Of a stretch of DNA of 64,000 bases, positions 318 to 10,730 are shown one piece after another. The DNA comes from Deltaproteobacteria bacterium (GTDB taxonomy: Bacteria; Desulfobacterota; Binatia; UBA9968; JAJDTQ01). Within the stretch, counting starts at the first letter, position 1; every line of letters begins with the position of its first letter. The stretch is from positions 1-64,000 of the forward strand of contig JAPOPM010000241.1 of assembly GCA_026712905.1 (NCBI GenBank). The letters run 5' to 3'. Both the position numbers and the translations under genes were made by a program. The notes under the pieces were generated by a model. That model did no database searches and had not been told where the DNA came from. It worked only from the letters and a program-made list of their open reading frames with translations.

Positions 318-442
318 GTCATTCCCGCGGAAGCGGGAATCCAGGGGCGGTGGAGGGGCATTGCAGCGGCGTTTCCCCGCCTCACCGCCCCTGGATTCCC
401 GCTTCCGATCGGAGTCGAGGGCAAGCTTTCGCGGGAATGACT
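318..442. repeat. Palindromic dispersed repeat, full unit with nested inverted repeats
   Basis: The unit is bounded by GTCATTCCCGCG (about 319-330) and its reverse complement CGCGGGAATGAC (431-442). Inside lies a longer near-perfect inverted repeat: about 328-354 (contains GCGGGAATCCAGGGGCGG) pairs with 381-407 (contains CCGCCCCTGGATTCCCGC). A partial copy occurs at 10681-10730 and a fragment at 497-518. The size and structure suggest a non-autonomous palindromic element of the REP/MITE kind. No transposase is nearby. Confidence 0.75.
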
Positions 443-3734: not shown

Positions 3735-6470
3735 ATGAACGCCAAAGACATCAGGACTGCCCCCCACGCCGCCACGACGGAGGAGACGGGCGCCGTGTCC
3801 GAACCCGGAGCGGGAGCCGTCGGCGCGCGCTCCAACGACCGGCTGCTGGATTCCCTCGAATCCTTGCTCGGGGAGGTCGTGCGCGAAGGGCCCAAGCAGG
3901 TCGACGCCATGATGGCGCAACTGTTGACGCGCATCCGCGAGCGCCAGCAGGTCCCCGTGGCGAGCCTCAACACGCCGTATCTCAACACTATCCCGAGGGA
4001 ACAGGAACCGCCGTATCCCGGCGACCGCCGCATCGAGCGTCAGGTGAAGAGCTACGTGCGCTGGAACGCCATGGCCATGGTGGTCAAGGCCAACCGCTTC
4101 CAGCCGGGCATCGGTGGGCACATCTCCACCTATGCCTCCGCGGCCAACCTCTACGAGGTCGCCCTGAACCACTTCCTGCGCGGCGGTGACGACGGCGCTC
4201 CCGGCGACCTGGTCTATTTCCAGGGCCACGCGTCACCGGGCAACTATGCGCGCGCCTACGTGGAACACCGCATGAGCGCGCGCAAGCTCCACCTCTTCCG
4301 GCAGGAATTGGCCAAGGGAGGCGGACTGCCGTCCTACCCGCACCCGCATCTCATGCCCGACTTCTGGCAGTTTCCGTCGGTGTCCATGGGGCTGGCGCCC
4401 ATCATGTCCATCTACCAGGCGCGCTTCGCCCGCTACCTGAGCACCCGAGGAATGCTGGCGCGGGAGCCGCGGGTGTGGTGTTTCGTGGGCGACGGCGAGT
4501 CCGACGAGCCCGAGGCCACCGGTGCCCTCTCGCTGGCGTCGCGCGAGAACCTGGACAACCTCGTCTGGGTCGTCAACTGCAATCTGCAGCGGCTGGACGG
4601 CCCCGTGCGCGGCAACGGCAAGATCATCCAGGAGCTGGAGGCCGTGTTCCGCGGCGCCGGCTGGAACGTGATCAAGGTGATCTGGGGCTCGGACTGGGAC
4701 CCGCTGCTCGCCGCCGACACCAAGGGGCTCTTGGCGGAACGGATGGAGCAGGCGGTGGACGGCGACTACCAGAAGTACGTGGTGGCGCCCGGCAGCTACA
4801 CGCGGAAGCACTTCTTCGGCACCCATCCCGAGCTGCTCGAGATGGTCAACCATCTCAGCGACGACGACATCCGCCGTCTGGCCCGGGGCGGGCACGATCC
4901 GCAGAAGGTGTACGCGGCGTACGCCGCCGCCCTGCGCCACGAAGGCGGGCCCACGGTGATCCTGGCGAAGACGGTGAAGGGCTACGGCCTCGGCGAGGCG
5001 GGCGAGGGGCGCAACATCACCCACCAGCAGAAGGCGCTCAACGAGAAGGAGCTGCGCGACTTCCGCACGCGCTTCGGCGTGCCGCTGCCGGACGAGGACG
5101 TGGTGGAGACGCCGTTCTATCGTCCGCCCCTCGACAGCGAAGAGACCCGCTATCTGCTGGAGCGGCGCAAGAGCCTGGGAGGGTTCCTGCCCGCGCGCGC
5201 GGCCAAGACGGAGGCGTTGGCGGTACCGGGGGCGGCGACCTACGAGGAGTTCCACAAGGGTTCCGCCGAGACCCGCGTTTCCACCACCATGGCCCTCGCG
5301 CGGCTCCTGAGCAAGCTCCTGCGCGATCCCGGCATCGGCAAGAACGTCGTGCCCATCATCCCGGACGAGGCGCGCACCTTCGGTATGGACGCGCTCTTCC
5401 GCCAGGTGGGCATCTATTCGCCCAAGGGCCAGCTCTACGAGCCCGTGGACCGCGAGACGCTGCTGTTCTACCAGGAGGCGAAGGACGGGCAGCTTCTCGA
5501 GGAGGGGATCAGCGAGGCCGGGGCCATGTCCTCCTTCATCGCCGCGGGGACGGCCCACGCCAATTACGGCGCGCCCATGATCCCGTTCTACACGTTCTAT
5601 TCGATGTTCGGCTTCCAGCGCATCGGCGACCTCATGTGGGCCGCGGCGGACAGCCGCGCCAGGGGATTCCTGCTCGGCGCCACCGCCGGGCGCACGACGC
5701 TCAACGGGGAGGGCCTGCAGCACGCGGACGGTCACAGCCACGTGCTGGCCAGCACCGTTCCCGCGTTGCTCACGTACGATCCGGCCTTCGCCTACGAGGT
5801 GGCGGTCATCGTCCAGGACGGCCTCCGGCGTATGTACCAGCGGCGCGAGGACGTCTTTTACTACCTCACGCTGTACAACGAGAACCTCGAGATGCCGGCC
5901 ATGCCCGCGGGGGTGGAGGAAGGCATCGTCAAGGGGCTCTACAAGTTCAGGCGCTCCGAGTCCGGCCACAAGCAGCGCGCGCACCTGCTGGGCAGCGGTC
6001 CGCTGCTGTTCGAGGCGTTGCGCGCCCAGCAGATCCTCGAAGAACGCTACGGCGTCGCCGCGGACGTGTGGAGCGCCACGAGCTACAACCTGCTGCGCCG
6101 GGACGCCCACGCGGTCCAGCGCTGGAACCTCCTCCACCCTGCGGAGGAGCCGCGCAAGTCCTACGTGGAATCGCTGCTGGAGCCCGAGACCGGGGTCTTC
6201 GTGGCGGTCTCGGACTACATGAAGATCGTGCCCGACCAGATCGCGCCGTGGGTGCCCGGCGGACTGGTCACCCTGGGGACGGACGGCTTCGGGCGGAGTG
6301 ACACGCGCGCGCGGTTGCGCCGCTACTTCGAGGTGGACGCCGAGTCGGTGGTCATCGCCACGCTGCACGCCCTGGCCCGCAAGGGCAAGATCGACAAGAC
6401 GGTGGTGGAAAGGGCCTTGCGCGAGCTGCGCTACAATCCGTCCAAGCCGCATCCCGGAATGGCAATCTAG
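3735..6470 (+). CDS. aceE: Pyruvate dehydrogenase E1 component, homodimeric AceE type
   Basis: E1 decarboxylates pyruvate on thiamine diphosphate and reductively acetylates the E2 lipoyl arm. At 911 residues it matches the single-chain AceE family (about 890) rather than the split alpha/beta E1. The thiamine diphosphate motif starts GDGESDEP at residue 252 and ends near NCNLQRLDGPV. The N-terminus carries a low-complexity stretch of about 25 residues. The start at 3735 follows the promoter elements; an earlier ATG at 3693 overlaps them and is less likely. The gene heads aceE-aceF-lpdA, separated from aceF by 145 bases holding a palindrome. Confidence 0.93.
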   Translation: MNAKDIRTAPHAATTEETGAVSEPGAGAVGARSNDRLLDSLESLLGEVVREGPKQVDAMMAQLLTRIRERQQVPVASLNTPYLNTIPREQEPPYPGDRRIERQVKSYVRWNAMAMVVKANRFQPGIGGHISTYASAANLYEVALNHFLRGGDDGAPGDLVYFQGHASPGNYARAYVEHRMSARKLHLFRQELAKGGGLPSYPHPHLMPDFWQFPSVSMGLAPIMSIYQARFARYLSTRGMLAREPRVWCFVGDGESDEPEATGALSLASRENLDNLVWVVNCNLQRLDGPVRGNGKIIQELEAVFRGAGWNVIKVIWGSDWDPLLAADTKGLLAERMEQAVDGDYQKYVVAPGSYTRKHFFGTHPELLEMVNHLSDDDIRRLARGGHDPQKVYAAYAAALRHEGGPTVILAKTVKGYGLGEAGEGRNITHQQKALNEKELRDFRTRFGVPLPDEDVVETPFYRPPLDSEETRYLLERRKSLGGFLPARAAKTEALAVPGAATYEEFHKGSAETRVSTTMALARLLSKLLRDPGIGKNVVPIIPDEARTFGMDALFRQVGIYSPKGQLYEPVDRETLLFYQEAKDGQLLEEGISEAGAMSSFIAAGTAHANYGAPMIPFYTFYSMFGFQRIGDLMWAAADSRARGFLLGATAGRTTLNGEGLQHADGHSHVLASTVPALLTYDPAFAYEVAVIVQDGLRRMYQRREDVFYYLTLYNENLEMPAMPAGVEEGIVKGLYKFRRSESGHKQRAHLLGSGPLLFEALRAQQILEERYGVAADVWSATSYNLLRRDAHAVQRWNLLHPAEEPRKSYVESLLEPETGVFVAVSDYMKIVPDQIAPWVPGGLVTLGTDGFGRSDTRARLRRYFEVDAESVVIATLHALARKGKIDKTVVERALRELRYNPSKPHPGMAI

Positions 6471-6539
6471 TGTGCTGCATCACAAACAGCTCGATGAATC
6501 CGCGAGGGTTTTCTTGTCGTCGGCAAGGCTCGATGACTT

Positions 6540-6564
6540 GTAGGGGCGACCTGCGGTCGCCCCC
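6540..6564. repeat. Short GC palindrome between aceE and aceF
   Basis: GGGGCGACC (6543-6551) and GGTCGCCCC (6555-6563) form a perfect 9-bp stem around TGC. There is no T tract, so it does not look like an efficient intrinsic terminator. The same kind of palindrome is a common dispersed repeat in high-GC genomes. It could tune relative expression of E1 and E2. Confidence 0.6.
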
Positions 6565-6615
6565 GGCGGCGGGCACCACGCGAGGAAGACCCCGGGTCAC
6601 ACGACACTGAATCCC

Positions 6616-10624: not shown

Positions 10625-10628
10625 ACGA

Positions 10629-10730
10629 GGCTGTGTCGAATCCCATTCGAACAGGAGATGGCACGGCCCTCCCCCCGAAACGTCATTCCCGCGGAAGCGG
10701 GAATCCAGGGGTGCGGAGGGGCATGACGGT
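10629..10730. repeat. Partial copy of the palindromic repeat
   Basis: GGCTGTGTCGAA (10629-10640) matches 279-290 before the full repeat with one difference. The segment 10679-10718 then matches 315-354 closely (AACGTCATTCCCGCGGAAGC and onward), and similarity continues loosely to about 10730. Only the left half of the unit is present. The copy lies inside the predicted 5' leader of the cold-shock gene. Confidence 0.65.

Follow-up and report, generated by a model that had tools for sequence, protein, structure and literature searches.

The palindromic element near the left end of the window is the inner part of a larger unit, here called X, which is quite probably a miniature non-autonomous transposable element that is mobilised in trans, duplicates 4 bp of its target and prefers the hairpin loops of CGTC-1 REPs. 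The window is the whole stretch of DNA analysed (bases 1-64000 of a 65,841-base contig) and belongs to the draft genome G000 (4.80 Mb). From the outside inwards, X consists of terminal inverted repeats, linkers that vary and, at its centre, a head-to-head dimer of CGTC-1 REPs (318-441). The features identified in the window are as follows.

261-276, + strand: target REP broken by X, left half (degenerate CGTCATTCCCGCGGAA), with the loop copy GGAA at its end (273-276); from the parse, flank class T
277-494, no strand: element X, a MITE-like unit of 218 bp; from end matches, parse, flank classes and alignment
277-292, + strand: left terminal inverted repeat of X, CCGGCTGTGTCAAACC (consensus CAGGCTGTGTCAAAAC)
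318-344, + strand: left CGTC-1 REP of the head-to-head dimer; from sequence and parse, fitting the description (8-bp stem, 4-nt loop, CCA tail) in the available part of PMC3733652
345-390, no strand: spacer separating both REPs; from sequence and parse
391-441, - strand: right CGTC-1 REP, its loop 28 nt long (403-430) instead of 4, owing to a small insert common to a subfamily
479-494, - strand: right terminal inverted repeat of X, GTTTCGACACAGCTTG
495-510, + strand: target REP broken by X, right half; its first four bases (495-498) are the loop copy GCAA, which differs from GGAA at one position
10627-10708, + strand: second X copy, lacking the right part, with a left terminal repeat (10627-10642), a linker and one REP (10682-10708)

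Extent, core and copy number of X

The sequence-only reading had described a 125-base unit at 318-442, with terminal arms GTCATTCCCGCG/CGCGGGAATGAC enclosing a second inverted repeat of 26 bases. Both arms are found in the sequence and the nesting is real, the inner repeat being 100% complementary (328-352/383-407) and 25 nt long. The right end falls at 441, which leaves 124 bases, and these boundaries are those of the inner REP dimer only, the true unit being 277-494. The motif GGCTGTGTC[A/G]AA, noticed ahead of both copies, does occur there and is the X terminus. Also genuine are the partial copy near 10681 and the fragment at 497-518, whose start falls in the right half of the REP interrupted by X. 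With up to 3 mismatches, ATTCCCGCGNAAGCGGGAAT matches the window four times (two sites, each read on both strands), whereas shuffled sequence gave 0.02 matches on average. The restriction of all copies to the first 11 kb holds inside the window and breaks down genome-wide, where 392 REP arms (201 + 191, up to 3 mismatches) were found in G000 and none in the reversed control. This genome-wide search, proposed earlier as a check, thus gave hundreds of arms instead of few copies, and the ends of X are consistent among copies; the earlier reading, a mobile palindrome that is non-autonomous and whose enzyme is not in view, had the right kind of object (it is multi-copy), drawn with the wrong extent.

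The sequence GTCATTCCCGCGGAAGCGGGAATCCAG with a C before it (317-344) fits a CGTC-1 REP both in the window and in the conserved alignment columns. The repeats have a CGTC or variant tag, the stem, the loop and the tail, and they occur in high copy and mostly as head-to-head dimers; the exception in the window is the right REP with its enlarged loop. When 40 of 314 candidates were scored, bases 1-124 of the dimer could be aligned at 90-94% in four other copies and at 85% in a fifth, and most listed copies matched bases 1-90 only, so that copies with the enlarged right arm make up a subfamily. The insert in that loop (20-24 nt, with CCCCGATCGGGG-like symmetry) appears in several copies and in either arm, and is possibly a second, tiny loop-inserting sequence. 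In an alignment of 24 chosen X copies the REPs and the ends were strongly conserved, and the linkers and spacers were variable. The fold of the window at 262-510 is far more stable than those of shuffled sequences (z -6.3, DNA parameters), and a search of Rfam over the window gave no family at the element.

Larger numbers of copies were obtained from four congeneric genomes (G000, G003, G005 and G007), the stretches of the last three being mostly picked around X or REP hits, so that the counts are not genome averages. An X-like end lies within 85 bp of the dimer, on at least one side, in 96 of these 126 dimers (single random 85-mers, 592/20,000), and the other 30 have no X end nearby; in the G000 sample, six of 41 dimers were solo by parse. 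One dimer without X ends (L125:5732-5832) has outer 30 bases on each side that are complementary at 29/30, unlike the other solo dimers listed. Conversely, all 58 X copies bounded by two ends in the four genomes contain a REP motif. Single-layer copies measure 182-273 bp in 36 cases out of 37 (the remaining one, 157 bp), and half of those in G005 (8/16) measure 203-205 bp. X has terminal inverted repeats, is short and dispersed and has no room for a transposase gene, all of which are features of a MITE.

Other repeats were seen in the window. Its first 230 bases (within 1-235) match dispersed places in the genus (twice in G008 and once in G004, 89-93%), and the end of this region, AATTAACCAGACACCACACTAGT, recurs in an intergenic insertion of G007; it is probably another mobile element. 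The region 6467-6599, between genes that we take to be aceE-like and aceF-like, recurs several times in G007 and G008 (82-91%) as a dispersed intergenic repeat family. Finally, 1432-1544 holds a 39-nt inverted repeat (90% complementary), and a similar TTCGACTTCGCT/AGCGAAGTCGAA hairpin is present in an intergenic region of G003.

Flanks of X and X-free alleles

Over 846,684 bases of G000, half a REP adjoins the outer side of 60 of the 70 X ends found with up to 2 mismatches; for looser ends (up to 4 mismatches) the figure is 87/120, compared with 120/20,000 random positions. In the four genomes, 221 X ends were found with up to 2 mismatches, and 204 of them abut a half REP cut at the 4-nt loop. 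This count also takes in a third class of flank, halves of 'closed' hairpins, uses a slightly different threshold and has its random control from the G000 count only. The two main classes of halves, both cut at the loop, are T (GTCATTCCCGCGGAA) and its partner I (CCTGGATTCCCGCTTCC). Both flanks could be classed for 47 X, giving 24 T/I, 8 T/closed, 12 T/T, 2 I/I and 1 closed/I. Pairs consistent with a split loop (one T plus one I or closed) therefore number 32/47, where permutation gives 22.9 on average (p 0.005), the excess being weaker in single-layer copies (20/32, p 0.07). Flanks of the T/T, I/I and closed/I kinds do not follow from one insertion.

Exact 4-bp duplications border 17 of the 58 bounded X, with a shuffle mean of 8.4 and a maximum of 15 in 500, and are missing from the other 41. 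Among single-layer copies they border 13/37 (mean 6.3), which only equals the shuffle maximum of 13. Lengths of 2, 3, 5 and 6 showed no excess over shuffle.

A more direct way to look at the insertion is to compare alleles with and without X. The second copy in the window lies at a gene that we take, from its sequence, to be cold-shock-like. At this locus G003 has no X and reads GTGTC-GATT-CATAATGC, with a single GATT, and G005 reads GTGTC-GATT-[X]-GATT-CATAATGC; G007 has X between GATT copies in the same place, with an extra internal change, and the window itself has the copy lacking the right part. The ends of X here are the GGCTGTGTC motifs, the dimer ends are not the insertion boundary and no REP half stands beside the inserted X. 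A target-site duplication of 4 bp is thus seen at one non-REP locus in two genomes. At a second locus, a two-layered X of G007 splits a REP between the loop copies GAAA and GGAA, and in G000 a single intact REP runs through the junction (799-bp alignment, 83%). Since G005 also has X at this locus, G000 either never had it or lost it precisely. Altogether 90 orthologous pairs were compared for 52 clusters. Short gaps appeared in 28 of the pairs, most of them imprecise (intergenic sequence replaced), and exact ends were found only at the cold-shock-like locus. The remaining junction matches (L236) were repeat-only at 65-77% and were discarded.

We propose that a transposase, presumably of the DDE type and supplied in trans, would cut at the CAGGCTGTGTCAAAAC ends of X and insert the element into the 4-nt loop of a REP extruded as a hairpin, so that the loop is duplicated and the REP split. 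Such an enzyme may recognise the structure of the loop and not its sequence. Each X would bring along two REPs, that is, its own next landing sites, and nested and tandem stacks would result. Recombination may account for the symmetric flanks and the tandem stacks: in the T/T cases, both REPs of one dimer could have been hit by X before recombining, and tandem units could come from later local amplification. One such array (L108:9463-9744) comprises six near-identical units of ~56 bp (X end, linker and REP half) beside one dimer.

Candidate enzymes and rival explanations

No transposase with X ends was found among 30 loci drawn from 43 DDE_Tnp_1 (PF01609) matches in nine genomes, the nearest being one lone 3-mismatch and one 4-mismatch end match. 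Neither of the two DUF772 (PF05598) matches in G000, which may represent an IS1182-type transposase, has matching ends; one of them lies in a 280-residue frame, and the other runs off the end of its contig. IS110 transposases target REPs, and their domain (PF01548), the one further DDE or DEDD family searched, had no match in G000.

A multi-copy IS end, GAGCCACTTGCAAAACC, was noticed in G005 (L145:2873-3014, C158, C35, C204, C241, C222, C95 and C96); six of its eight copies reach a contig end and one sits inside an X. The G005 sequence starting CAGGCTGTGTCAAAACACCAGAGCC was considered as the end of a parent IS and rejected, the other 7/8 copies lying beside unrelated flanks; it is a separate IS that hit an X.

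An alternative that we regard as unlikely places mobility in the REP dimer itself (a REPIN), which would be moved as single-stranded DNA by a RAYT-like Y1 transposase, the outer arms being passive pre-existing palindromes. G000 has just one Y1 match, a RAYT-like gene whose translation contains HNHFH and Y---NP-like motifs, and REPs flank it within ~300 bp on both sides. The closest orthologues are similarly flanked, on both sides in G005 and G007 and downstream only in G003. If the 64 clusters were placed uniformly over the 846,684 bases (stretches partly chosen by hits), one would lie no more than 300 bp from a given side in ~2% of cases. The four genomes with flanked orthologues have 111-707 arms versus 8-91 in the four unflanked, and the solo dimers of G000 would also fit this alternative. 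The search for a RAYT-like gene, recommended by the sequence-only reading, accordingly met with a REP-flanked gene in G000 and with four orthologues (G002, G004, G006 and G008) having no REPs within about 1.5 kb, the tags of G002 lying ~3 kb away (L066). The flanking is therefore suggestive and not conserved.

A close orthologue of the RAYT-like gene (at least 72%) is present in 8/9 genomes of the genus (G001 has no match), and the six named records with relatives of the gene are MAGs assigned to Candidatus Binatia or 'Deltaproteobacteria'. Several observations speak against the dimer as the mobile unit. The gene is found at a constant position: its downstream neighbour, presumably LLM-oxidoreductase-like, is the same in 8/8 genomes, and the upstream one, presumably isocitrate/isopropylmalate-dehydrogenase-like, in 6/8, the exceptions being G005, whose contig begins there, and G006, which keeps only a 24-residue match. 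REP arms also occur in genomes without a RAYT-like match (16 in G001 and 28 in G050). At the cold-shock-like locus, the clean insertion with its 4-bp duplication is bounded by the ends of X and not by those of the dimer, and we know of no Y1 enzyme that produces a 4-bp target duplication. The protein matches Y1_Tnp above the cut-off, Bac_DnaA_C at E 3.6e-6 (27.3 bits, below the cut-off of 31.5) and NF047646 at 71.1 bits (below the cut-off of 80). This domain layout, as judged from two matches below cut-off, suggests subclass 2.1, which is reported without REP association in the part of PMC6006769 available to us.

Still less probable is a non-transposing origin, in which the REPs would be terminators or mRNA-stability hairpins and the nested arms would have arisen by local recombination and hairpin-templated copying. 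The very stable fold and tandem units such as those of ~56 bp would agree with it, as would the 10 nt beside the dimer, where complementarity is 0.74 inside one copy and 0.55 from copy to copy. It does not sit well with the X-free and X-bearing alleles that differ by a precise 4-bp duplication at one locus, nor with dispersed copies of near-constant length in G005. Finally, that the true unit might be T-X-T', REP halves included, with the T/I cases as decayed copies, could draw on the 12 T/T pairs and is hardly credible in view of the 24 T/I and 8 T/closed pairs and of the clean X at the cold-shock-like gene with no adjoining REP half.

Relation to known systems and implications

We return to X as a probable miniature element inserting into REP loops. 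Head-to-head CGTC-1 dimers, including the Neisseria ones equated with dRS3, share with its core the CGTC tag, the 8-bp stem, the 4-nt loop, the CCA tail and the high copy number, and those of H. neapolitanus also lie within a larger palindrome (Di Nocera et al., PMC3733652, as far as its available text goes). Judged by that same text, X differs: its palindrome has defined ends, duplicates 4 bp of the target (seen at one locus) and mainly targets other REPs. QMITE2 of Coxiella burnetii is likewise a REP-containing MITE (150-190 bp) whose small copies resemble plain REPs and whose REP is an insertion target; unlike X, it has a GTAG REP and direct repeats of 7-11 nt, and the target is used by IS1111 and not by the MITE itself (PMC5896051, in the portion available). 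REPs are known as targets of IS from several families, and insertion within REPs is described for IS1397, ISKpn1 and IS621, which encode a transposase, whereas X encodes none (PMC1525189, in the sections at hand). The ends of IS1272 (IS1182 family) are perhaps 16 bp long and its targets are stem-loops. IS1272 reportedly takes the place of the stem-loop and leaves no duplication, although one sketched alternative, in which joining at the loop duplicates the loop only, would resemble X (PMC5678879, from the accessible part of the paper). A link between X and the IS1182 family was not found at the ends of the DUF772 matches in G000. To our knowledge, none of the REP-targeting IS (IS1397, ISKpn1, IS621) carries its target REP internally. 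A literature search gave, among the matches listed, no earlier description of a MITE that nests in the loops of REPs, nor any of these repeats in Binatota.

With up to 1 mismatch allowed, G000 has 131 matches to the 16-base X end, and 13/197 other genomes of the phylum have 1-2 near matches each; this sample excludes other members of the genus and order of G000 as well as G037. In G037, which belongs to another family, seven of the 16 CGTC-1 REP loci fetched (L259-L274) share a different flank, CTAGTAGTCAGTCATGTTGATTCTG, and at none of the 16 does an X end lie 180 bp or less from the REP, the 4-mismatch matches at three loci lying at 186-380 bp. This suggests a different carrier around the same REP core in G037, and in other lineages too different outer arms may surround that core.

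What appears to be new here is an element that carries its own target and is found inside that target; the kinds of components (MITE, CGTC REP and REP-targeting) are known. For one genus of Candidatus Binatia, this is relevant to a question raised in the literature, the mobility of CGTC REPs: the available text of PMC3733652 states that CGTC repeats have no association with transposase genes and leaves their mobilisation open. One idea that we consider evenly balanced is that the vehicle by which CGTC REPs spread here is a MITE bearing two copies of its preferred target and so its own landing pads. If so, each insertion in a REP loop would destroy one site and supply two, a self-sustaining process leading to recursively nested palindromes, and a dedicated REP transposase would not be needed for the spread of CGTC REPs. 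With the ends of X defined, a 4-bp duplication at one locus and 96 of 126 dimers near an X-like end, the mobilisation of CGTC REPs becomes testable, and the question narrows to one enzyme, the user of the CAGGCTGTGTCAAAAC ends, which possibly reads the REP loop.
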